From Candidatus Zixiibacteriota bacterium (GTDB lineage: Bacteria > Zixibacteria > MSB-5A5 > GN15 > JAAZOE01), in NCBI GenBank assembly GCA_030668485.1, contig DAOUTW010000050.1, positions 1 to 32,733 of the forward strand: a DNA stretch of 32,733 nt. Reading direction: 5' to 3'. Below are positions 9,078 through 21,227 of this stretch, one piece after another; within the stretch, counting starts at the first letter, position 1; the number at the start of each line of letters is the position of its first letter. The position numbers were made by a program, and so were the translations under genes. The notes under the pieces were generated by a model. That model had not been told where the DNA came from, ran no database searches, and was given only the letters and a program-made list of their open reading frames with translations.

Positions 9078-10132
9078 AAATCGCTATGCTGGCTTATGCC
9101 GGGTCGGTTCATACCCGGCGATGGAGTAGAGGATTGGCCGCCCGCGGGCATAATATCCGAATAATATCGAAGGGCGGCGTGCCGGAATTGTCCGATAATG
9201 TCGCCGTCGATATTCTCCCCGGAAAGACATCCCTGGCCTATTTCAGGAATATTGGTCGGGTAAAAAATATAATCAGTCGTTTCAGTCCCGATATTGTCCA
9301 TGCTCATTATGCCACCGGGTACGGCTTATGGGGTTATAAGCAGAAAACCGCTCCGTTGATCCTGACCGTATGGGGAACCGATATTGCCGATGCCCTGGCC
9401 GGGAAAATGATCATTGCCCCGATTGTTCGGAGGGCGCTGAAAAAGGCCCGGTTTATAACATCGGCCAGCATCTTTATGATGGAGCAGACAGCAGGTTTTG
9501 AACCATCGGTCAAGGACCGGCTGGTGCATATACCTTTTGGAATACCTCTCGAATCCGATGTTCCTCTTCCCGATAATGACAGCGATACCGTAAAGCTTAT
9601 TTTCGCCAAATTGTTTTATCCGTTTTATGCTCCGGAAATGGTGCTCCGCGCTTTCGCCAAAGCTCTCGGCCGGGTTCCGAATATCAGGCTGACAATGATC
9701 GGAGGCGGCCCGCTCCATGACCGGCTGTTGAAACTCACCGATGAGCTAAACCTGACTCATGCCGTGAATATCTGTGGCTTGGTGGAGATGTCCGAGTCAT
9801 CGCGGCTGATTCGTAATTCAGATATAATGCTGATGCCCTCCGAAAAGGAGTCTTTCGGTGTTGCTGCCCTTGAGGCGGCCGCCGCGGGCGTTCCGGTTAT
9901 CGCGACCAAAGTCGGTGGCATACCGGAAATCGTCGAGGACAAGTATAATGGAATCCTTATCGCACCGGGCGACGAAAAAGCTCTCACCGCAGCCATCATC
10001 CAACTGGCCGAAGACCCGATTATGCGCAGCCGGATGGGAGAGGCCGGCAGAAAAATAGCCCGAGAACGATATGATTTCGAAAAATGTCTCGATCAAATGG
10101 AAGGTCTATATCGAGAGGTGGCAGGCAACTGA
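9074..10132 (+). CDS. GT4-family glycosyltransferase
   Basis: A cytosolic GT-B glycosyltransferase of 352 residues. The N-terminus (MKIAMLAYAGSVHTRRWSRG) is the acceptor domain, and the C-terminal half has the retaining GT4 EX7E block in ESFGVAALEAAAAGVPVIAT, followed by GGIPEIVEDKYNGILIAPGD. It should add one sugar to the undecaprenyl-linked repeat unit; donor and linkage cannot be told. The start is TTG 9074 in a TTGA overlap with the polymerase stop, with AAGGA about 10 nt upstream. Its stop overlaps the next ATG (TGATG). Confidence 0.92.
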   Translation: MKIAMLAYAGSVHTRRWSRGLAARGHNIRIISKGGVPELSDNVAVDILPGKTSLAYFRNIGRVKNIISRFSPDIVHAHYATGYGLWGYKQKTAPLILTVWGTDIADALAGKMIIAPIVRRALKKARFITSASIFMMEQTAGFEPSVKDRLVHIPFGIPLESDVPLPDNDSDTVKLIFAKLFYPFYAPEMVLRAFAKALGRVPNIRLTMIGGGPLHDRLLKLTDELNLTHAVNICGLVEMSESSRLIRNSDIMLMPSEKESFGVAALEAAAAGVPVIATKVGGIPEIVEDKYNGILIAPGDEKALTAAIIQLAEDPIMRSRMGEAGRKIARERYDFEKCLDQMEGLYREVAGN

Positions 10133-11358
10133 TGCGCATACGATTTATAACCTTGTATTTTTCTCCGGAAGTCGGGGCTGCTCAGCGGCGTATTTCGGAA
10201 TTAACCCGGCGATTGGCCGAGCTGGGGCATGAGGTTACGGTTCTGACCGGTTTTCCTAATTACCCCTCAGGAGTCAAGCCCGAACGGTATCGAAATAAGT
10301 TAATTATGAAGGAACAATCGGAGGGCTGTACCATAATCCGGGTGCCGCATTTTATTGCCCCCAATAAAGGATTTCTCAAGCGGATCATGATTCATCTCAC
10401 TTTTTCCTTCTCAGCCTCGGTCTATTCACTATTCATGAAAAAGGATGATATCATCTACCTGGAATCACCGCCGCTGTTCAATGGTTTTATCGGTTTGGTA
10501 AACAAATGGTTCCGCCGCATACCTTATTTCTTTAATGTGGCCGATCTCTGGCCGCAAACAGCTATCGAACTGGGGGCTTTGAAGAACAAACAGATCATCA
10601 CTTTTACACAGTTTCTGGAGAGGCTGTTTTATAATCGTTCGGCCAGGATTCTGGCCGTCACGGCCGGGATTCAGGAATTTATAATCGATATGGGATATGA
10701 TGAGGAGAAAGTTCCGCTTATCACTAATGGTGTCGACCACATGATTTTTCATGATGGAATCGAGCCGGACCCAAAGGTTCGGGAATATAAAAAAGAGGGC
10801 CGGATACTGGCGCTCTATGCCGGAACACATGGCATGGCCCATTCCCTGGAAACTATTCTCAAAGCCGCCAACCGTCTTGAAAATGAGAAAATAGATTTTC
10901 TGTTTATTGGCGATGGCGCTGAAAAAGATATGCTCGTAACCAGGGCTGGCGAACTTAATTTGATAAATGTTACTTTTCTCGACTCGTTGCCTCAGGCACG
11001 TATGCCGGCGATCCTGCGGAGCGCTGACATGGCAGTTATTCCTCTCAAGGATTTGCCGTTGTTTGATTCGGCAATGCCCTCCAAGTGCTTCGAAGCGATG
11101 GCCGCCGGTTTGCCGATTATGCTCTCGGTGCGAGGAGAAATGGCTCATCACATAAATGAGGCTGAATGCGGATTCACCGCCGAGCCGGATAACCTTGATG
11201 AAATTGTTGCGGCCTTCCGCAAATTTATCGCCTTAGACAGCGAGGAGCGGAAGGAAATGGGGAGAAGAGGGCGTGACTATGCCGTAAGAAATTTCTCACG
11301 GGAGATGATCACCAAAAAGCTGGAATCGATTTTGCAGGAAACGGTATCGCATGGATGA
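10132..11358 (+). CDS. GT4-family glycosyltransferase (WbuB-like)
   Basis: A GT-B glycosyltransferase of 408 residues resembling WbuB. The N-terminus reads MRIRFITLYFSPEVGAAQRR, and the family block FNVADLWPQTAIELGAL is clear. The C-terminal domain has AMPSKCFEAMAAGLPIMLSV, the donor-binding region. The ATG at 10132 overlaps the previous stop (TGATG) and has a purine-rich AGAGGTGGCAGG upstream; longer in-frame starts would read back into the previous gene. It likely transfers an acetamido sugar in repeat-unit assembly. It overlaps the start of the methyltransferase remnant by 8 bp. Confidence 0.9.
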   Translation: MRIRFITLYFSPEVGAAQRRISELTRRLAELGHEVTVLTGFPNYPSGVKPERYRNKLIMKEQSEGCTIIRVPHFIAPNKGFLKRIMIHLTFSFSASVYSLFMKKDDIIYLESPPLFNGFIGLVNKWFRRIPYFFNVADLWPQTAIELGALKNKQIITFTQFLERLFYNRSARILAVTAGIQEFIIDMGYDEEKVPLITNGVDHMIFHDGIEPDPKVREYKKEGRILALYAGTHGMAHSLETILKAANRLENEKIDFLFIGDGAEKDMLVTRAGELNLINVTFLDSLPQARMPAILRSADMAVIPLKDLPLFDSAMPSKCFEAMAAGLPIMLSVRGEMAHHINEAECGFTAEPDNLDEIVAAFRKFIALDSEERKEMGRRGRDYAVRNFSREMITKKLESILQETVSHG

Positions 11359-11709
11359 CGATAAAGACAGAATTGACAGTGTCTTTCGCCGGCGCAGAAA
11401 GCTGGACAGGCGTTACTCAATTGAAAATCGGGGTAATATTTTCAACTTTGAACATCTCCATAAAAATATAATGAACCGTCTGGAATCGTTATTTAATGAC
11501 CTGAGCGGGAAGCGGATGCCGGATTTGGGCTCCAGGGAACTGTTCTGGACCGAAAAAATCTTGCGCATGGGCTTTAAGCTGAAATCGGTGCTGGACTTCC
11601 GCAACTGGCCAGAAGATTGGGCGGAAAGTTCTCTCTTTTGTTGAATTCTTTTAATGCCTTGCCTATCTTACGGACACATTACCTGGCAATAATCGCACCG
11701 AAAGGATAG
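11351..11709 (+). pseudogene. SAM-dependent methyltransferase remnant (internal deletion, frameshift)
   Basis: The N-terminal frame (11351-11644, 97 codons) reads DRRYSIENRGNIFNFEH, then LSGKRMPDLGSRELFWTEKI, which lines up with the start of class I methyltransferases found in polysaccharide loci, where motif I is VLDxGCGxGxW. Here motif I is broken (MPDLGSRELFW). In the -1 frame, from about 11600 to the TAG at 11707-11709, the DNA encodes LARRLGGKF and then LPILRTHYLAIIAPKG, the usual C-terminus of the same family. The two ends meet within about 20 bp near 11590-11610, so roughly 130-150 codons from the middle are missing and the frame is shifted. The family match is from memory. The short first frame could still be translated. 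Confidence 0.72.
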
Positions 11710-11710
11710 T

Positions 11711-12871
11711 ATGAAAGTCAACGGCGTCCCTTTTTATAGACAATCATTCGGAAAAGCCGAAATAGCGGAAGTGACCGATACCATCAAGAGCGGTTGGGTC
11801 ACCACCGGAAAAAAAGCAAAACTTCTCGAAAGCGAAATCGCCGATTATCTTGATGCTCGCCACACGGTGGCGGTCAATTCCTGTACGGCGGCGATGCATC
11901 TCCTGCTATGTGCCTCCGGTATTGGTCCGGGCGATGAAGTTATCACGACGCCGTATACCTTCGCCTCCACCAGCGAGTGTATCCTGTATACCGGGGCACG
12001 CCCGGTGTACTGCGATATCAACTATGAGACGCTCAACATCGAACCGGATGAGGCAGCCAAAAAGATTACCAGCAAAACCAAAGCTCTGTTGCCGGTTCAT
12101 ATCGCCGGATTACCGGTTCATCTTGACGGTTTTGTCCGGCTGGCCCGGGAACATAAAATCAAATTTTTCGATGATGCCGCTCATGCCCTGGGCGCCGAAT
12201 ATAAGGGGAAGATGGTTGGAACGATCGGTGACGGCAGCGCCTTCAGTTTCTATGCTACCAAGAATCTGACTGCCGGCGAGGGGGGGATGGTCGCCACCCG
12301 GCATACGAAACTGGCTGAAAAAGTCAGGCTATTATCACTTCACGCCATGAGTAAAGGGGCCTGGAAGAGATACACCAAAGGCGGCAGTTGGCGCTACGAT
12401 CTTCTTGACCTGGGATATAAATACAATCTCTCCGACCTGGCCGCTTCGCTGGGCCTGGCACAGTTCAACCGCTTTGAGGAATTTCAGCTACGGCGTGCGC
12501 GTGCTGCACGACGGTATACGGCCTATCTGAAAACAATCGAGGAAATCAAACTACCGGTGGTCGAAGAACAATCGGTTCATGCCTGGCATCTGTATATGAT
12601 CCGCCTGCGGCCCCGGATGTTGAAGATTAACCGCGACCAATTCATCGACGAATTGAATGCGAAAAACATCGGGACATCGGTGCATTTTATCCCGCTTTTC
12701 CTGCAAAGTCATTATCGCAAACATCTCAATTTGAATCGCAAGGATTTTCCCAATGCCGATAAGGCTTTCGGTGAGGTGATAACCCTGCCGTTCTTCCCCG
12801 ATCTGAAGCAGGAGGAGATTGATTACGTCTGCGGTGTGATTGGAAGTATCTGCAAGAAATATAAACGATGA
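11711..12871 (+). CDS. DegT/DnrJ/EryC1/StrS sugar aminotransferase
   Basis: A second PLP aminotransferase of 386 residues. It has the opening block of this family (FGKAEIAEVTDTIKSGWVTTG), NSCTAAMHLLL, FFDDAAHALGAEY and FSFYATKNLTAGEGGM, with lysine 184 as the predicted Schiff-base residue. The start resembles C4-aminotransferases that act on UDP-4-keto-6-deoxy sugars (PglE/WlaK/ArnB group), different from the WbpE-like gene at 3889. No 4,6-dehydratase to supply such a substrate is evident here. AAAGGA lies 6 nt before the ATG at 11711. It overlaps the phosphoglycosyl transferase gene by 4 bp. Confidence 0.9.
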   Translation: MKVNGVPFYRQSFGKAEIAEVTDTIKSGWVTTGKKAKLLESEIADYLDARHTVAVNSCTAAMHLLLCASGIGPGDEVITTPYTFASTSECILYTGARPVYCDINYETLNIEPDEAAKKITSKTKALLPVHIAGLPVHLDGFVRLAREHKIKFFDDAAHALGAEYKGKMVGTIGDGSAFSFYATKNLTAGEGGMVATRHTKLAEKVRLLSLHAMSKGAWKRYTKGGSWRYDLLDLGYKYNLSDLAASLGLAQFNRFEEFQLRRARAARRYTAYLKTIEEIKLPVVEEQSVHAWHLYMIRLRPRMLKINRDQFIDELNAKNIGTSVHFIPLFLQSHYRKHLNLNRKDFPNADKAFGEVITLPFFPDLKQEEIDYVCGVIGSICKKYKR

Positions 12872-13461
12872 AACGCCTATTTGATTTTGTCATGACCCTT
12901 ATCGGGTTGATTTTCCTATCGCCTCTGCTGATTCTGATATCTCTACTGATCCTGCTGACAATGGGGTGGCCGGTATTTTTCCGCCAGGAACGGGTCGGGC
13001 GGGACGGGAAGTTGTTTACGATCATCAAGTTCCGCAGTATGATAAAGGATGCTGAGAATAAAGGAAAGCCGTATACCTCAGAGGGCGATCCCCGGATTAC
13101 CCCGGTGGGGCGTTTCCTGCGGAAATACAAGCTCGACGAATTACCTCAGTTGTTCAATGTCCTCAAGGGGGAAATGGCTATTGTTGGCCCGCGCCCGGAA
13201 GTTGCGGAGTATGTGAAGCTATACACCGAAGAACAAAGGAAAGTCCTGACAGTGCGGCCGGGATTGACCGATACCGCATCCATCGTTTACCGGAACGAGG
13301 AGAGAATGCTGGCGCGGTTCGAGGATTCCGACAGTGCTTATGTCGAGAAGATAATGCCGGCCAAGCTCAAGCTGAACCTGGCTTATTTGGAAAAGGCCGG
13401 TTTTTGGGGCGATCTGATCCTTATTTTCAAAACGCTTGAAAAGATCTTTTGGCGGCGATAA
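12868..13461 (+). CDS. Initiating phosphoglycosyl transferase (PglC-like bacterial sugar transferase)
   Basis: A small membrane enzyme of 197 residues that should transfer a sugar-1-phosphate from its UDP donor to undecaprenyl phosphate, starting repeat-unit synthesis. It has one N-terminal re-entrant/membrane helix (about 8-32), the basic motif RQERVGRDGKLFTIIKFRSM, DELPQLFNVLKGEMAIVGPRP and a PGLTDTAS block, all standard for the bacterial sugar transferase domain. The length matches monotopic PglC rather than the polytopic WbaP/WcaJ class. The ATG overlaps the aminotransferase stop (ATGA). Confidence 0.92.
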   Translation: MKRLFDFVMTLIGLIFLSPLLILISLLILLTMGWPVFFRQERVGRDGKLFTIIKFRSMIKDAENKGKPYTSEGDPRITPVGRFLRKYKLDELPQLFNVLKGEMAIVGPRPEVAEYVKLYTEEQRKVLTVRPGLTDTASIVYRNEERMLARFEDSDSAYVEKIMPAKLKLNLAYLEKAGFWGDLILIFKTLEKIFWRR

Positions 13462-13511: not shown

Positions 13512-15320
13512 ATGAGTTTGCCGAGAAGACGTTATTCATATTTGCAGGCTGCCGCCGACTTTGTGCTCTTTATTTTCATTTCATGGGCATTGATTCTGTT
13601 CCAGCCTTCGATCAAAGAGATTGCCGGCGGGGGAATGATTTCAACCCTTCTGCCGGTCTTTATTTCTCTTTTTATGGTTTGTCTACTGGCCATCTTTCGG
13701 CAGTATCGGCTGCGCAGCAGTGATCGCTTCCTGCGGCAGTTCATGAGCGCCTTCAATGTCGTTACTCTCGGATTCTTGTTGGTAGTCGTAATCAGCTTCG
13801 ACCTCGGCGCTATGGTTACCCGGCACCGGGGCCAGCTTTTCCTGCTTCTCTTGGGACTTTTGTTGGCTACCGCTCTTTCCCGTGTGGTAATCTACATGTG
13901 GATGGGCCGGCGGCCCGATTTTTCGCTCAAAGAACCGGTTATACTTAAAAACGGCAATGGCAATGGTCGCAAGGAATTGACTCCTCTGATCCTGTCCGCC
14001 GATCTTACCATCGAAGAAGCCAAAAAACAGATTGACGATTCCCCCTTCGATTTTGCCGTTGTGATCGACCCGGACGGCTATTATGCCGGGACGGTAACCG
14101 ATGGCGATATTCTTGAACTTCTGCTCGATAAGGACAAAGAAAACGGCAACGTTCGCGGTGTGATGGACAAATCGCATCCGGTCGCGCGTGAAACGGTATC
14201 TCCCAGACGTATTCGCCAGATGATGATCGACCGCAACCTTCGTTTTTTGCCGCTTCTGACCAATGAGGGCAAACCGGCGCGAGTGTTACTGCTGTCGGAC
14301 CTCGATGCCAAGTATCGCACGGTTAAACTCAAAGATCGTTCCCGGCGGGTGTTGATTATCGGCGGCGCCGGATATCTCGGGTCGGTGATGGCCCGCTATC
14401 TGCTGAAACGGGGTTACCCGGTGTCGGTCCTGGACAATCTGATGTTCGGTTACGATGCCATGACGGAGCTCGATAATCATCCCGCATACCGGTTCTACAA
14501 AGGGGATGCCCGCAATATTCAGGATCTGCTAACCGCTATGGATGATGTCGATTCGGTGGTTCATCTGGCGGCGATTGTCGGCGATCCGGCCTGCGAACTG
14601 GATCATCGCCAGACTATCGATATCAACTATGAAGCCTCGAAATTCATGGTCGAGGCCTGTATGCATAAAAAGGTCAATCGTCTGTTGTTCGCCTCCACCT
14701 GTTCGGTGTACGGCGCGAGCAAAACCGTCGAACTGCTTACCGAAGAATCGCCGATCAATCCGGTATCTCTTTATGCCGAGACCAAGCTGCGGTCGGAAGA
14801 GGCGATGTTGAGCAAAGCCGAACCGCCGTTGGCGGTAACGATGTTCCGCCTGTCGACCGTTTTCGGGTTTTCATATCGGCCACGGTTTGATCTGGTGGTC
14901 AATATCCTGACGGCACGGGCGCTCGAAGACGGCGAGATTTCCATCTTTGGCGGAACGCAGTGGCGGCCCAATGTTCATGTCCTCGATGTCGTGACCGCTT
15001 TTGTGGCGGCGATTGAAGCCCCCAAAGAGAAAATTGATCGACAGATCTTCAACCTCGGGTCGGAGAAAGAAAATTATCGTATTTCCGAACTGGGCGATCT
15101 GGTCAAGGAAATTCTCCCTGAAACCAATGTCAAAACGGTCGAGGCGGCTATCGACCGGCGCGATTATCGGGTCGGATTTGATCGGATTGAGAGCACTTTG
15201 AACTGGAAGGCGAAGGTCAGCGTCCGCGACGGTATTCAGGAAATCATCGACGCCTATCACCAGAAAAAATTCGGCCATTACTCCAACAAAATCTATTCCA
15301 ACCTCAAGCACCTGCAATAA
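13512..15320 (+). CDS. Four-helix membrane domain + CBS pair + SDR sugar epimerase fusion
   Basis: A 602-residue protein with three parts. Residues about 11-127 hold four membrane helices like the N-terminus of CapD/WbpM/FlaA1-type proteins. Residues about 155-265 form two CBS motifs (DSPFDFAVVIDPDGYYAGTV with TDGD, and RNLRFLPLLTNEG), usually adenosyl-ligand sensors. Residues about 268-590 are an extended SDR with IIGGAGYLG for NAD, serine 378 in STCSVYG, and Y401xxxK405 in YAETK. The SDR resembles WcaG/GalE-type NDP-sugar epimerases or reductases. It likely makes or modifies a sugar nucleotide at the membrane under CBS control. ATG 13512 is reported; TTG 13518 has better Shine-Dalgarno spacing (GAGGGA). 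CapD-type proteins normally have a CoA-binding-like domain where the CBS pair sits. Confidence 0.82.
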   Translation: MSLPRRRYSYLQAAADFVLFIFISWALILFQPSIKEIAGGGMISTLLPVFISLFMVCLLAIFRQYRLRSSDRFLRQFMSAFNVVTLGFLLVVVISFDLGAMVTRHRGQLFLLLLGLLLATALSRVVIYMWMGRRPDFSLKEPVILKNGNGNGRKELTPLILSADLTIEEAKKQIDDSPFDFAVVIDPDGYYAGTVTDGDILELLLDKDKENGNVRGVMDKSHPVARETVSPRRIRQMMIDRNLRFLPLLTNEGKPARVLLLSDLDAKYRTVKLKDRSRRVLIIGGAGYLGSVMARYLLKRGYPVSVLDNLMFGYDAMTELDNHPAYRFYKGDARNIQDLLTAMDDVDSVVHLAAIVGDPACELDHRQTIDINYEASKFMVEACMHKKVNRLLFASTCSVYGASKTVELLTEESPINPVSLYAETKLRSEEAMLSKAEPPLAVTMFRLSTVFGFSYRPRFDLVVNILTARALEDGEISIFGGTQWRPNVHVLDVVTAFVAAIEAPKEKIDRQIFNLGSEKENYRISELGDLVKEILPETNVKTVEAAIDRRDYRVGFDRIESTLNWKAKVSVRDGIQEIIDAYHQKKFGHYSNKIYSNLKHLQ

Positions 15321-15339
15321 CCCGCAGGGGCGGGTTTTT
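15319..15339 (+). terminator. Rho-independent terminator of the polysaccharide operon
   Basis: AACCCGC (15319-15325) pairs with GCGGGTT (15330-15336) around a 4-nt loop, and a run of five T begins at 15335. It sits directly on the stop codon of the last polysaccharide gene. Confidence 0.8.
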
Positions 15340-15844
15340 GGCTGTCGCGTAGATGACCCGGCTATGAGCATGGATAGCAGGCTGAGTATCCCGTAGTCGT
15401 GTGGCCGCGACCTCTGGTCGCGGTGGCGAAGCCACAGGCAGAGGCCTGTTTTAGGCTGTCGCGCGAGAGGTGGATCAGGACCCTGCAGAGCAGTAAGGTG
15501 CACCATTTTTAGACCAAAAAACCCCTTTTAAGCTCGAAAAGTGGCTTATAATGGCTTAGATTGGCTTTGGTAAAAAAGCGATGTCGTTGCCGCACAACGA
15601 TTATTTGGCTTTGTTTGCTCATTTTTACATGTTTCCCCGGTTTCTCCTCCCTTGGGGTCATACTTGGATTGGCTCTCAGGGCGATTTGTTTCATAGATAT
15701 ACCTTTCTTGTTCAGGTTCACTTAACAGGATGGTATAGGAATCTACAGTGGTTTACTGTTGATTTTGGTGGCGGGGGTGGAAGGGGCCACACTTAGGTTG
15801 TCGCGCCAGAAGCGGACAGGTGCGTGGATGATCAGAATTAGTAG
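15340..15844. other. Noncoding stretch with hairpins and CTGTCGCG motifs
   Basis: No convincing gene is seen here. The first part holds adjacent hairpins: CCGCGACC/GGTCGCGG (15405-15423), GTGGC/GCCAC (15423-15435) and CAGGC/GCCTG (15435-15448). The word CTGTCGCG occurs at 15342-15349 and 15456-15463, with a one-base variant (TTGTCGCG) at 15798-15805, each followed by a weakly conserved tail. The same word recurs at 15965, 16689 and, reversed, at 16952. Around 15500-15780 the DNA is more A+T-rich; short frames exist on both strands but none has a domain I recognise. Confidence 0.6.
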
Positions 15845-15895
15845 ATACGGTCTTTCAAGTCAAGTGTTGATATTTGGAAGAATTGGATGTTTTAA
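15845..15895 (+). pseudogene. 3' stub of a second RAYT transposase gene
   Basis: The last nine codons before the TAA at 15893-15895 read VDIWKNWMF, against IDIWKDWLF at the end of the intact RAYT at 16135-16620. DNA after both stops is nearly identical for about 120 bp. Upstream in this frame a TAG at 15842 ends the similarity, so only the 3' end of a sister copy survives. It shows an older copy of the element lay, or was partly duplicated, immediately upstream of the present one. Confidence 0.6.
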
Positions 15896-16014
15896 GACCG
15901 CAGGGTCACACGTCCCGAAGACGGGCCGCAGGACCCTGCGGAACAGGCAGGAGCCTGGTTTCTGCTGTCGCGCATATGACCTGATTACGGAAAATTAAAA
16001 TGAATTCGTGTATT
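15867..16014. repeat. Long direct repeat, copy 1 (RAYT 3' unit)
   Basis: Copy 1 of a repeat also found at 16592-16738. It covers the last RAYT codons, a REP hairpin, a CAGGC/GCCTG hairpin, CTGTCGCGCATATGACCTGA and a tail that decays after 15996. The copies differ by a few substitutions in the coding tail and one extra base in the hairpin arm, and are otherwise identical through the core. Confidence 0.85.
15898..15941. repeat. REP hairpin A, copy 1
   Basis: Arms CCGCAGGGTC (15898-15907) and GACCCTGCGG (15932-15941) enclose an inner CCCG/CGGG hairpin. It directly follows the RAYT stub stop codon. Confidence 0.8.
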
Positions 16015-16020
16015 CACGTT

Positions 16021-16062
16021 CCGCAGGGTCCTGATCCGCTCTTGCGGATTGTGACCCTGCGG
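16021..16062. repeat. REP hairpin A, copy 2 (upstream of the RAYT gene)
   Basis: The same outer arms, CCGCAGGGTC (16021-16030) and GACCCTGCGG (16053-16062), enclose a different inner hairpin, ATCCGC/GCGGAT (16034-16049) with loop TCTT. It lies 73 bp before the RAYT ATG, so the gene is bracketed by this REP family. Confidence 0.82.
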
Positions 16063-16134
16063 TCTTTTATCACATTCAGGATCAATAAACAATTAGTTAT
16101 TGTCAATATTGTGCCTACTAGTAATATATATATC

Positions 16135-16620
16135 ATGGGGCTGAGATTCAAAAATCAGAAATACGGCCAGTGTTTTTTCGTGACGACGACCTTTCACGAA
16201 TGGACCGAATATGGGGATATCCCCAGTGTATATGAAGCATTGGCTGATTCATGCCGGTATTACAGCCATAAATATGGTGCCAGAATAATCGGATACGTCT
16301 TTATGCCCACTCACCTTCATATGCTTATTTTAATCGATGGAAAACAATTGCCCAATTTCATGCGTGATTTAAAGAAATATGTTGCCCAAAAGGTTATGAA
16401 AGATTTAGGTATAAAGGATGATAAAATCTGGATGGCGGGATATGATCGGCAGGCAGTTTCTACGGAGATGGTATTCCGCACCAAGCTGGACTATATTCAT
16501 AATAATCCCGTTAGGAGCGGATATGTTAAGGGCCCCGAAAAATGGCAGTGGTCAAGTGCCGGGGATTATTTGACAGGTACTTCGGGCATGATTGACATTT
16601 GGAAAGATTGGTTGTTTTAA
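16135..16620 (+). CDS. REP-associated tyrosine transposase (RAYT, Y1 HUH family)
   Basis: A 161-residue single-strand nuclease/transposase of the IS200/IS605-related RAYT group. The HUH motif is H60-L-H62 in FMPTHLHMLI; tyrosine 103 in WMAGYDRQAV fits the catalytic position, and LDYIHNNPVRSG is the usual C-terminal block. RAYTs bind and cut REP hairpins; matching hairpins lie 73 bp upstream and 2 bp downstream. ATG 16135 begins the conserved domain; the frame is open further upstream to 16000 but that part runs through the REP and is unlikely to be coding. It is A+T-richer than neighbouring operons, in keeping with an accessory gene. Confidence 0.9.
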   Translation: MGLRFKNQKYGQCFFVTTTFHEWTEYGDIPSVYEALADSCRYYSHKYGARIIGYVFMPTHLHMLILIDGKQLPNFMRDLKKYVAQKVMKDLGIKDDKIWMAGYDRQAVSTEMVFRTKLDYIHNNPVRSGYVKGPEKWQWSSAGDYLTGTSGMIDIWKDWLF

Positions 16621-16738
16621 GACCGCAGGGTCACACGTCCCGAAGACGGGCCGCAGGACCCTGCGGAACAGGCGGAGCCTGGTTTCTGCTGTCGCGCATA
16701 TGACCTGATTACGGAAAATTCAAATAAATTCATGTATC
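16592..16738. repeat. Long direct repeat, copy 2 (RAYT 3' unit)
   Basis: The second copy of the repeat at 15867-16014, offset by 724-725 bp. It starts within the RAYT gene (last nine codons) and extends about 118 bp beyond its stop, so the gene's 3' end and downstream hairpins moved or duplicated as one unit. Confidence 0.85.
16623..16666. repeat. REP hairpin A, copy 3 (downstream of the RAYT gene)
   Basis: Arms CCGCAGGGTC (16623-16632) and GACCCTGCGG (16657-16666) with inner CCCG/CGGG, identical to copy 1. A short CAGGC/GCCTG hairpin and the CTGTCGCG word (16689-16696) follow. Confidence 0.82.
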
Positions 16739-17039
16739 AAAGATGTCGGGTTTTTCGTCCGTTCGCCGATAGTGAACTCCCTCAGAGCCCGACCTTCTGT
16801 ATTCATGATTATAGCCAATCCAGCGTATTGGTATACAATAAGGCGGATGAGCAATAGTTAACGCTGGGGCAGACGGGGGCGTCTGCCGCCCACATATTCG
16901 TCTGCAGAGCATCAGGCCATCTACGCGGCAGCCAAAATGTGGCTCTGCCACCGCGACAGCCAAAGGGCCGCCCCCGCGGCCAATTATCATTGTTGACCCT
17001 ACGGCCTCTTTTCTATACATTACATCTTTTGATATGGTA
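16739..17039. other. Noncoding, hairpin-rich stretch before serS
   Basis: No gene is supported. A strong hairpin GGCAGACG/CGTCTGCC lies at 16868-16887. The CTGTCGCG word is present in reverse orientation at 16952-16959, near GC-rich sequence that ends around 16982. The last part carries the likely serS promoter. Confidence 0.55.
16993..17021 (+). promoter_or_regulatory. Probable serS promoter
   Basis: TTGACC (16993-16998) and TACATT (17016-17021) are 17 bp apart, giving a start near 17028 and a leader of about 100 nt. A second, isolated -10-like TATAAT lies at 17099-17104 without a recognisable -35. Confidence 0.45.
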
Positions 17040-18400: not shown

Positions 18401-19627
18401 ATGGCCAAGGGCGGCAATAAATATTTATTGACCCTTTCCGGCAGATTCCACACTGTTTTCAAGGTCTTTCTGCTGGTCGGCGTATGTGCTATCGGCGCGG
18501 TCTTTATCTATTACACCTCCGATGTGATCGACGATATCCAGGCCAATGAAGCACGGATCGCGGAAACTTATACTCATATCTGGCAGTTGGTCGCCTCGGA
18601 CAGTGTCAGCGGCCCGGTGACATCGGTGCTGTTTGATGAGGTAATTCTTAAATCCCAATTTCCGATTGTGGTTACGGATACGGCAGAAGAGCCGTTGTTC
18701 TGGAAGGAATTGCCCGGTATTCCGGCCACGACCGAAGATCCGAAAATAATCGACCGGATCAAGAAGCGGGTAAAGGAAATGAAAACCCGCAAAGGATCGA
18801 TTCCGATTTATGTCGATTCGGTCGAAATCTACCGGCTGTTTTACGACGACACCGCCCTGATCGGAAAACTGCAGCTTATCCCGGTGGTGGAAATGGCGAT
18901 GGTGATCGGGTTTATCGTTCTGGCCCTGGTCGGATTTCAACATATCCGTCGTTCGGAGCAGAAAAGTATCTGGGCCGGCATGGCCAAGGAGACGGCGCAC
19001 CAACTGGGGACGCCGATTACATCGCTATTGGGATGGGTCAATCTACTGAAAGCGGGTGAGATTAACGGATCGTTCACGCCCGAAGAGATGTATCGACGGA
19101 TCGAAAATGATCTGTCGCGATTGGAGATTATTGCGAATCGTTTCGGCAAAATCGGATCGATTCCGATCCTTAAAAAGAACGATCTTAATCAACTGACCGG
19201 TGAGGTGATTGATTATTATCATGAAAGGCTGCCGTATGGCGGCAAAGGGGTTCAACTCAAGTTTGAACCGGGCGAAGTCCCGGAGGTAAATCTCAACCCG
19301 GAATTGTATTGCTGGGTGGTTGAGAATTTGATCAAGAACAGCCTCGAGGCGGTAGACGCCAAAGAGGGTCATATCATGGTAAAAACACGCCTTTCATCGT
19401 CAAGTAGATCGGTCGTAGTCGAGGTGATCGATAACGGAAAAGGGATCCCACGCAGCGATGCCAGGCGAGTTTTTCGACCCGGTTATACGACCAAAAAACG
19501 GGGTTGGGGTTTGGGGCTTTCCCTTGCGCGGCGGATAATCAACGAATACCACAAAGGGAGCATTTCGCTTGTCAGAAGCGATCCCGGCAAGGGAACGACG
19601 ATAGTCATTCATCTGCCTCTCGCATAG
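18401..19627 (+). CDS. porY: Membrane sensor histidine kinase (PorY-like)
   Basis: A 408-residue sensor kinase. Two membrane helices (about 17-38 and 160-180) flank a periplasmic domain of about 120 residues that I do not recognise. The DHp helix reads WAGMAKETAHQLGTPITSLL with histidine 200 as the phosphorylation site, and the ATPase domain has ENLIKNSLEAV, VIDNGKGIP and GWGLGLSLARRI. The KETAHQLGTPI form of the H-box and the adjoining PorX-like regulator point to PorY, which signals for type IX secretion genes in Bacteroidota. The symbol rests on these two facts; function outside that phylum is unproven. Confidence 0.82.
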   Translation: MAKGGNKYLLTLSGRFHTVFKVFLLVGVCAIGAVFIYYTSDVIDDIQANEARIAETYTHIWQLVASDSVSGPVTSVLFDEVILKSQFPIVVTDTAEEPLFWKELPGIPATTEDPKIIDRIKKRVKEMKTRKGSIPIYVDSVEIYRLFYDDTALIGKLQLIPVVEMAMVIGFIVLALVGFQHIRRSEQKSIWAGMAKETAHQLGTPITSLLGWVNLLKAGEINGSFTPEEMYRRIENDLSRLEIIANRFGKIGSIPILKKNDLNQLTGEVIDYYHERLPYGGKGVQLKFEPGEVPEVNLNPELYCWVVENLIKNSLEAVDAKEGHIMVKTRLSSSSRSVVVEVIDNGKGIPRSDARRVFRPGYTTKKRGWGLGLSLARRIINEYHKGSISLVRSDPGKGTTIVIHLPLA

Positions 19628-19658
19628 ATGCGGCTAACTTTTTATTAAGGATGATAAA

Positions 19659-21227
19659 TTGAGTACCAACGCCAAAAGCCATAATATACTCTGGGTTGAC
19701 GATGAAATCGAGATGCTCGATGCCCATATAACTTTTCTTGAGCAGCGCGGTTTCGGCATCACACCCTGTTCTTCCGGAGACGACGCTATCGCTCTGATCG
19801 GCAAAAACGATTATGACCTGGTGCTGCTCGATGAAATGATGCCGGGCAAAGACGGCCTGCAAACTCTTGTCGAAATCAAGGATATCAAACCATATCTGCC
19901 GGTGGTGATGGTCACCAAATCGGAAGAAGAGTCATTGATGGAGGATGCTATCGGTCAGAAAATTGACGATTATTTGACCAAACCGGTTAATCCATCGCAG
20001 GTTTTGATGATTATTAAGAAGCATGTGCAAAGCAAGAAAATCGTCACCGGCCGGCTGGGGCAGCGGTATATCGCCGATATCAACCGGATGAACATGACAC
20101 TCAACGGACCGGTCGAGTGGACCGACTGGGTCGATGCCTATCGTTCCTTGTGTGAATGGGATCTGGAACTGGATAAGTATCCCGACGAAGGATTGGCCGA
20201 AACGCATCGGGGGACTCACAAAGAATGGAATGGACAGTTTTCTCGTTATTACGAGAACAATTTCGAAAGCTGGGTAAATTCCAAGGACCATCCGCCGCTT
20301 TCGACCGATGTGATCGATCAGTCTGTGATTCCTCGATTGAAAGAGGGCGAACAGGTGGTTTTTATTGTCATCGACTGTATGCGCATGGATCTCTGGATGA
20401 AACTGGAGACGCTGCTTTCGGATCTTTACCATATCGATCACAATTTTTATTTTTCGCTCATCCCCTCGGCGACGCCATTTTCTCGCAATGCTATATTTTC
20501 CGGGATGTTCCCGTATGATTTCGCCAAGTTATATCCCGATGACTGGAAAGCTTATCCCGACGACGAAGTATCACGCAATCGTCGAGAATATGAATTACTG
20601 AAAAAACAACTGGCCGATAAGAAAATCAAAGTTGAAAACGGATCGAAATATATCAAGGTACTCAACGCCAATGAAAGCGAGGGGCTGCCCAAACGAATTG
20701 AGAATTATCTCTCATCGCAACTGGTGGCGCTGGTTCTTAACTTTGTCGACGTTCTGACACACGGTCGGTCGAACAATATGTTGCTCAAAGAAATCGTACC
20801 GGATGAGGCGGCGTTCCGTTCGCTGATGCAGACCTGGTTCGAACATTCCAGTTTGTATGAAACGCTGAAAATGCTGGCGCGAAAGAAAGTCACGGTGGTT
20901 ATAACCTCCGATCATGGTTCAACACTTTGTTCGCGGGGAACCATTGCTCACGGAAAACGGGATACCTCGACCAACCTGCGGTACAAATACGGCGATAATC
21001 TCAATTGCAATCCCAAAGAGGCGCTGCTGATCAAGAATCCGGATCGCTATCGGTTGCCGTCTTTTTCGCTGGCGACTACCTATCTCATCGCCCGCGAGGA
21101 TTTTTATTTCGTTTATCCCAACCGCTACAATGAATACCAGCGGCAATTCCAGAACAGCTTTCAGCATGGCGGAATCACCATGGACGAAATCATTCTTCCG
21201 GTGGCGACCCTGAAGCCTAAGGGATAA
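19659..21227 (+). CDS. porX: PorX-like response regulator with PglZ phosphodiesterase domain
   Basis: A 522-residue two-domain protein. The receiver domain (1-125) has D14/D15, phospho-acceptor D58 in LVLLDEMMPG, T86 and K108. A helical linker follows, then a PglZ/alkaline-phosphatase-fold domain (about 200-520) with D239 in FIVIDCMRMD, predicted nucleophile T272 in SLIPSATPFSRN, D365 and H368 in FVDVLTHGR, and D418-H419 in VITSDHGS. This layout is PorX, reported to be a phosphorylation-controlled enzyme acting on small oligonucleotide signals. The start is TTG 19659 with AAGGA about 8 nt upstream; the nearby ATG at 19651 stops after three codons. The partner is the kinase at 18401. Confidence 0.9.
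   Translation: MSTNAKSHNILWVDDEIEMLDAHITFLEQRGFGITPCSSGDDAIALIGKNDYDLVLLDEMMPGKDGLQTLVEIKDIKPYLPVVMVTKSEEESLMEDAIGQKIDDYLTKPVNPSQVLMIIKKHVQSKKIVTGRLGQRYIADINRMNMTLNGPVEWTDWVDAYRSLCEWDLELDKYPDEGLAETHRGTHKEWNGQFSRYYENNFESWVNSKDHPPLSTDVIDQSVIPRLKEGEQVVFIVIDCMRMDLWMKLETLLSDLYHIDHNFYFSLIPSATPFSRNAIFSGMFPYDFAKLYPDDWKAYPDDEVSRNRREYELLKKQLADKKIKVENGSKYIKVLNANESEGLPKRIENYLSSQLVALVLNFVDVLTHGRSNNMLLKEIVPDEAAFRSLMQTWFEHSSLYETLKMLARKKVTVVITSDHGSTLCSRGTIAHGKRDTSTNLRYKYGDNLNCNPKEALLIKNPDRYRLPSFSLATTYLIAREDFYFVYPNRYNEYQRQFQNSFQHGGITMDEIILPVATLKPKG

Follow-up and report, generated by a model that had tools for sequence, protein, structure and literature searches.

What reaction is carried out, and what is sensed, by a protein that places a pair of CBS domains, a module that often binds nucleotides, between four membrane helices and an SDR domain? 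The question arises at a gene within the window, the whole stretch of 32,733 nucleotides that we analyzed, which is an entire contig of a 4.5-Mb assembly. An original prediction had proposed a membrane-bound sugar epimerase under nucleotide-sensing control. We favor a different reaction and give about an even chance to the following reading: a nucleotide-sugar C4-dehydrogenase that is held at the membrane and regulated allosterically, and that would feed a DegT aminotransferase and then a phosphoglycosyl transferase (PGT). The gene, its parts, and its upstream neighbors are:

10084–11358, plus strand: family 4 glycosyltransferase (GT4) of the same conserved operon (Pfam; blastp operon comparison)
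11351–11644, plus strand: 97-aa methyltransferase remnant (comparison with the whole gene of relatives)
11711–12871, plus strand: DegT-family aminotransferase, ArnB/PseC-like (Pfam; PDB; NCBIfam)
12868–13461, plus strand: small monotopic PGT (Bac_transf), 197 aa, next gene upstream of the fusion (Pfam E 1.6e-62)
13512–15320, plus strand: 4TM-CBS-SDR fusion protein, 602 aa (open frame from ATG at 13512 to the stop at 15320; full-length homologues)
13539–13904, plus strand: four-helix membrane module, residues 10–131 (hydropathy; model helices; TIGR03025 N-terminal match)
13974–14321, plus strand: CBS pair, residues about 155–270 (Pfam CBS; PDB CBS pairs)
14340–15317, plus strand: extended SDR domain, Cj1427-like, residues about 277–602 (Pfam; PDB sequence search; Foldseek; VIA)

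A single-chain fusion in a conserved operon

Hydropathy, Pfam, PDB matches, and homologues confirmed that four helices, a CBS pair, and an SDR share one continuous frame, as originally predicted, and that the product is a real, membrane-anchored single chain. Its layout is a new combination of known modules; in the open-licence literature we found no published description of a CBS plus SDR/epimerase architecture. The gene is present in all seven genomes of the family and complete in six of them, while in the seventh (G005) it ends about 440 bases in, at a contig end. The six homologues, window included, align end to end, with 67–72% identity to the window protein. Upon comparing them part by part, we obtained dN values of 0.26–0.32 for the helices, 0.33–0.49 for the CBS pair, and 0.14–0.16 for the SDR, against dS values above 1.1, near saturation, in 13 of 15 comparisons and not computable in the rest. 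As dN lies well below dS, each of the three parts appears to be under purifying selection, and since the six homologues share the whole layout, it is not a product of chance. An assembly artefact was likewise rejected, given its occurrence in six genomes from five genera.

The fusion is also rare, as had been anticipated. Searching for the domain combination, we found that an N-terminal query matched 15 of 132 phylum genomes: 7 were those of the fusion's own family, 5 gave SIS-CBS proteins, and 3 gave weak matches with no usable ORF (L034, L036, and L037). With a CBS-SDR profile against the same 132 genomes, the matches that reached into the first CBS copy came, among the matches listed, from 6 genomes, all of the fusion's family. 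Among the matches listed, the full fusion was hence seen solely in one family of the 132 phylum genomes. Its sister family f2 has about 40 genomes with strong matches to the SDR only, mostly in ORFs of about 330–370 aa, and an NTP_transferase gene adjoins the SDR in both f2 loci examined with Pfam (L095 and L097). In a contig scan with short exact patterns, the named relatives of the protein belonged to Candidatus Zixiibacteriota MAGs and to one labelled "FCB group bacterium", which is the basis for assigning the family to Zixibacteria; because such patterns reach close relatives only, the scan says little about other phyla. Of two viral contig scans, one yielded a single distant SDR and the other nothing, and a near search of E. 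coli genomes gave no match.

The order DegT, PGT, fusion recurs in all six full-length loci, with the DegT gene of locus L042 assigned by Pfam and its PGT by ORF position and length only. By blastp to the window proteins, the longer order of GT4, methyltransferase (where present), DegT, Bac_transf PGT, and fusion was found in the window, L039, L040, L041, and L112, where the ORF list of L039 held no GT4b match and that of L041 no methyltransferase match. The methyltransferase is whole in L039, L040, and L112, at 228 aa, compared to 97 aa in the window.

In L041 and L112, serS directly follows the fusion gene, while the window stretch 15321–16740 holds a REP-associated tyrosine transposase (16000–16617, NF047646 over cut-off) flanked by two identical 44-nt palindromic stretches (15898–15941 and 16623–16666). 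The dispersed repeat beside this transposase has at least 69 matches in its own genome, with 40 of 176 candidates scored. Further along, 18401–21227 carries a histidine kinase gene and then a response regulator-PglZ protein that, we presume, resembles PorX.

The helix module and the CBS pair

Hydropathy placed the membrane segments at residues 10–35, 37–67, 74–104, and 107–131, and a predicted structure placed helices at 10–38, 42–66, 72–97, and 103–131. That model used a 25-row alignment and reached a pLDDT mostly above 90 in the SDR, about 50–70 in the helices, and low values in the second CBS copy (an earlier model from six near rows had a mean pLDDT of 48.6). The fold library rows span the SDR part alone, which places CBS and helix folds outside its reach. 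Upon scanning the helix module by itself, we found a match to positions 2–119 of TIGR03025, the exopolysaccharide polyprenyl glycosylphosphotransferase model for large PGTs. TIGR03025 was the top match for all five family helix modules tested, with E values of 6.8e-6 (window), 6.2e-7 (L007), 4.9e-5 (L008), 6.8e-6 (L010), and 2.8e-4 (L012), as well as for the helix module of a 4TM-SDR protein labelled as cyanophage (1.6e-4). Two block shuffles of the module that roughly kept its hydropathy gave no match, nor did the two other multi-helix window proteins (Wzy-like and MurJ). By contrast, when the family module was aligned by hhalign to seven large PGTs taken from these genomes, with shallow profiles on both sides, no match emerged (probability 0.8%). 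The TIGR03025 matches suggest that the helices correspond to the four-helix module of large PGTs, which PglF-type dehydratases have in common with them.

The remainder of the chain differs from both of these groups. Large monotopic PGTs of the TIGR03025 kind, such as WbaP and WcaJ, carry their catalytic domain in the chain, whereas the fusion has none; the Bac_transf catalytic domain is encoded by the separate small PGT gene directly upstream, which matched only the C-terminal part of TIGR03025 (257–441). We considered and rejected the idea that this arrangement arose when a sole large PGT of the genome was split, as a PF13727 protein is encoded elsewhere in every genome of the family (one match in each of 7/7). 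The likeness to CapD/WbpM-type proteins that had been pointed out from the outset holds up through the TIGR03025 helix match, the presence of a middle domain, and the C-terminal extended SDR: PglF, CapD, and WbpM share four N-terminal helices and this order with the fusion. Their middle domain is PF13727, whereas PF13727 was absent from the fusion protein at E 0.001 and a CBS pair was found in its place.

The assignment of this middle region as a CBS pair stood up to several searches. In the window protein, the first copy spans residues 158–205 (Pfam E 2.7e-9), and the second, scanned alone as a 60-aa piece, reached 19.4 bits where 24 are required; the second copy is clear in L008 and L010, with its best stretch at 212–262. 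Two CBS stretches passed Pfam in four of the five other homologues (L007, L008, L010, and L011) and one did so in L009. A five-row profile of residues 150–272 matched whole CBS pairs in the PDB, for example 3kpb (MJ0100) over positions 8–114 with E 5.7e-5. The last Asp of the first motif, G-x-[VI]-[TN]-D-G-D-I, is retained in 6/6 family homologues and the second motif, S-x-x-D, in 5/6. Motifs of this kind are associated with nucleotide binding, with which the CBS pair is compatible.

A published precedent suggests what such a domain might do at this position. In a study of WbaP, large PGTs and PglF-type dehydratases were described as having four helices and a PF13727 domain in common, a sharing by functionally unrelated enzymes that the study called "puzzling"; the WbaP PF13727 domain was reported to bind uridine nucleotides and UDP-sugars, and UMP to inhibit WbaP (PMC10942596). 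By the same logic, the CBS pair that stands in place of PF13727 is a plausible sensor of a nucleotide or nucleotide sugar, which would tune flux through the fusion enzyme. We suggest, tentatively, that the CBS pair independently replaced the uridine-nucleotide sensor of WbaP and PglF, such that flux control at the same position evolved more than once, with the CBS pair reading the nucleotide-sugar product of the pathway or the nucleotide charge and throttling the supply of amino sugar to the PGT. Through such a layout, the cell could be able to slow the construction of its surface polysaccharide. The fusion would be a third enzyme type with these helices, but one with a well-studied sensor module.

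It is possible, if doubtful, that the CBS pair is structural only, acting in dimerization or spacing with no ligand. The CBS pair is the least conserved part of the protein (48–58% identity versus 76–80% for the SDR), the cyanophage-labelled relative manages without it, the CBS copies of haloarchaeal relatives have no motif Asp, and the WbaP middle domain is reported to also hold the dimer together (PMC10942596). The retention of the first-motif Asp (6/6) and of the second-motif S-x-x-D (5/6) argues against a purely structural role.

CBS pairs on other sugar-pathway enzymes were also encountered in the phylum. The initial remark that CBS pairs occur in sugar pathways stands, but its emphasis on nucleotidyltransferases needs widening: of the other CBS matches that the N-terminal query gave in the phylum, the five checked with Pfam all proved to be SIS-CBS proteins, presumably KdsD-like, rather than nucleotidyltransferases. 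Like the fusion, these have a CBS pair on a sugar-pathway enzyme, whereas they differ in their isomerase-type domain, the C-terminal place of the CBS pair, and the lack of helices.

The SDR domain and its proposed reaction

Pfam Epimerase covers residues 280–516 of the window protein with E 8.4e-44. The statement that the NAD loop and YxxxK are intact was correct for the window protein (GGAGYLG; Y421-x-x-x-K425), but YxxxK does not hold throughout the family: Y421 is kept in all six homologues, while K425 is replaced by Arg in three of them. In some more distant relatives, the equivalent residue is Asn or Cys. The three Arg425 homologues cluster together in the SDR tree; as a side observation, Arg425 homologues also carry Ser instead of Thr at the residue that precedes the Cys-Ser discussed below (loci noted: window, L007, L009, and L011).

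In both sequence and fold, the nearest known structure is Cj1427. The best PDB sequence match was Cj1427 (6vo6) with E 6.9e-51, followed by 2.7e-25 for the next; Foldseek likewise ranked 6vo6 first (E 5.8e-30, next protein 2.5e-24) and superposed the model on 6vo8, also Cj1427, with a TM of 0.94 and an rmsd of 1.6; and VIA gave Z 40.6, compared to 38.1 for the next non-Cj1427 entry. The two SDRs are 34–36% identical and share the S-x-R-x-R-x-D-L region and Y-x-x-x-K. They differ in the active-site columns, which read TNSGYG in Cj1427 and TCSVYG in the fusion, and Cj1427 has neither helices nor CBS.

The linked aminotransferase points to the same carbon. The best structural match of the DegT protein was ArnB (8sng, E 1e-83), and its best NCBIfam models were ArnB (358 bits) and PseC (350 bits), both under their cut-offs. 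ArnB and PseC both act at C4. With the SDR gene linked to an aminotransferase of the C4 type, release of a 4-keto sugar would be favored.

These findings suggest the following scheme. The four helices would hold the fusion protein at the inner membrane face, beside the small PGT, and the SDR would oxidize C4 of an NDP-sugar via bound NAD+ without removal of water. The DegT enzyme, whose gene lies two positions upstream, would then aminate the 4-keto product, and the PGT, encoded between the DegT and fusion genes, would load the 4-amino sugar phosphate on a lipid carrier. Cj1427 of Campylobacter jejuni was reported as a C4-dehydrogenase that oxidizes C4 of GDP-glycero-manno-heptose and whose tightly bound NADH is recycled by α-ketoglutarate (PMC10680097). 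Ping-pong use of ketoglutarate was also described for WbpB (PMC10622841), and WbpB and WbpE, acting at C3, set a precedent for a ketoglutarate-using dehydrogenase beside a glutamate-using aminotransferase. As in Cj1427 and in WbpB of P. aeruginosa, the bound NADH of the fusion SDR may be re-oxidized by α-ketoglutarate, and a glutamate/ketoglutarate cycle could then link the dehydrogenase to the aminotransferase; we infer such a WbpB/WbpE-like coupling of the fusion SDR with DegT from this likeness. Cj1427 belongs to a heptose pathway, whereas a Pfam scan of 20 window proteins named none for heptose synthesis, which makes the substrate of Cj1427 itself unlikely here. Also counting against the C4-dehydrogenase reading are the identity to Cj1427 of only 34–36%, the tree position of plasmid SDRs with Cj1427-like motifs (see below), Arg at position 425 in three of six homologues, the weak second CBS copy, the hhalign outcome for the helix module, and the cyanophage-labelled relative, for which no DegT gene is listed within 4 kb.

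A C4-epimerase of the GalE or UDP-GlcNAc/GlcA 4-epimerase type with a CBS regulator is the next reading in line, and we regard it as unlikely. Among generic models, Pfam Epimerase and NCBIfam galE match best, and 4-epimerase folds follow close behind Cj1427 (Z 38.1 versus 40.6). However, galE, the best curated model, scored 112 bits against a cut-off of 262.3, the sequence match to Cj1427 is far stronger than that to any epimerase, and an epimerase beside a 4-aminotransferase would supply it with no keto substrate. On the GalE score we rejected a plain epimerase, and the "epimerase" label originally given to the domain yields to Cj1427 as its closest relative in sequence and fold. More broadly, an epimerase or a reductase sharing the SDR fold might also fit the sequence.

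Very unlikely, and rejected as a candidate, is a PglF/CapD-like 4,6-dehydratase whose middle domain has been exchanged and which would supply DegT and the PGT with 4-keto-6-deoxy sugars. This reading would account for the same helix module and for neighbors of the bacillosamine-pathway kind, but is contradicted by the missing PF13727 match, by Polysacc_synt_2 covering residues 280–406 only (E 8.8e-9 versus 8.4e-44 for Epimerase), and by the absence of the dehydratase Asp-Glu pair, as the T-D-E columns read T/S-C-S in 6/6 family members. Bacillosamine-type pathways have a DegT aminotransferase and a PGT as partners, and the fusion shares these partners with PglF, CapD, and WbpM, whereas those enzymes carry the Asp-Glu pair and belong to another SDR subfamily. 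L004, an SDR from the same genome, retains T-D-E in these columns. The view that the SDR is of another subtype than that of CapD/WbpM was thereby borne out, given the lack of the pair and Cj1427 as nearest relative.

Relatives with part of the layout

For the preferred C4-dehydrogenase reading, relatives with fewer parts offer a comparison. Plasmid proteins of the haloarchaea Haloterrigena, Natronorubrum, and Natrinema have, like the fusion, a CBS copy before an SDR of the same subfamily, whereas they have no helices and their second CBS part and nucleotide motif are degenerate. Pfam CBS was matched in five of six of them (E from 3.6e-7 to 0.039; over cut-off in three), the sixth, L056, having been scanned from its annotated, later start and so without the CBS part. 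As with the fusion, a DegT gene adjoins, lying just upstream of the haloarchaeal gene in five of six loci, with none listed for L056. DegT genes also adjoin plasmid SDRs of Pantoea and Klebsiella. The converse arrangement occurs in Aphanizomenon phage Yong-DA, where a 508-aa "NAD dependent epimerase" (UOX39780.1, L120:3476–5002) has, like the fusion, four helices before an SDR of the same subfamily but, unlike it, no CBS pair and no DegT gene listed within 4 kb. From these part-layouts, it appears that the helices and the CBS part are readily gained or lost, and that the linkage of SDR and DegT is in most cases retained. Fusion, CBS-only, and helices-only relatives form a natural domain-swap series, which could separate the role of the helices (placement beside the PGT) from that of the middle domain (flux control).

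In an SDR tree of 55 rows, the six fusion homologues formed one clade (100/100), which is nested in a larger group (85/86) that also includes the Pantoea SDR, the cyanophage-labelled protein, and the CBS-SDRs of haloarchaea. L003–L006 were left out of the tree and are present in the motif table; L060, with a stop inside, was left out of both. Free SDRs of f2 genomes and of one f4 genome made up another group (98/94), and plasmid SDRs with Cj1427-like motifs (L118 and L119) fell closer to SDRs of other Zixibacteria proteins than to that of the fusion. AU tests did not reject a single clade of the family with the haloarchaeal SDRs (p 0.45) or with the cyanophage-labelled SDR (p 0.27), and gave p 0.07 for the family with other Zixibacteria SDRs, values that would be compatible with a single fusion event behind the CBS-bearing forms, but also with more than one order of fusions.

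Some further observations concern individual records. The Yong-DA record, in which ParA and a replication protein are encoded as well, is perhaps a plasmid. In the Klebsiella variicola plasmid, the frame of the SDR (L060:6001–7050) carries a stop, and an annotated DegT gene adjoins it. Asn replaces the Lys of YxxxK in three further SDRs of this superclass, at L108:6666–7700, L110:6802–7836 (minus strand), and L111:6762–7796 (minus strand); those of L108 and L110 score under the cut-off of the dTDP-glucose 4,6-dehydratase model and adjoin RmlC-like and RmlA- or RmlD-like genes, at a place where RmlB would be expected.
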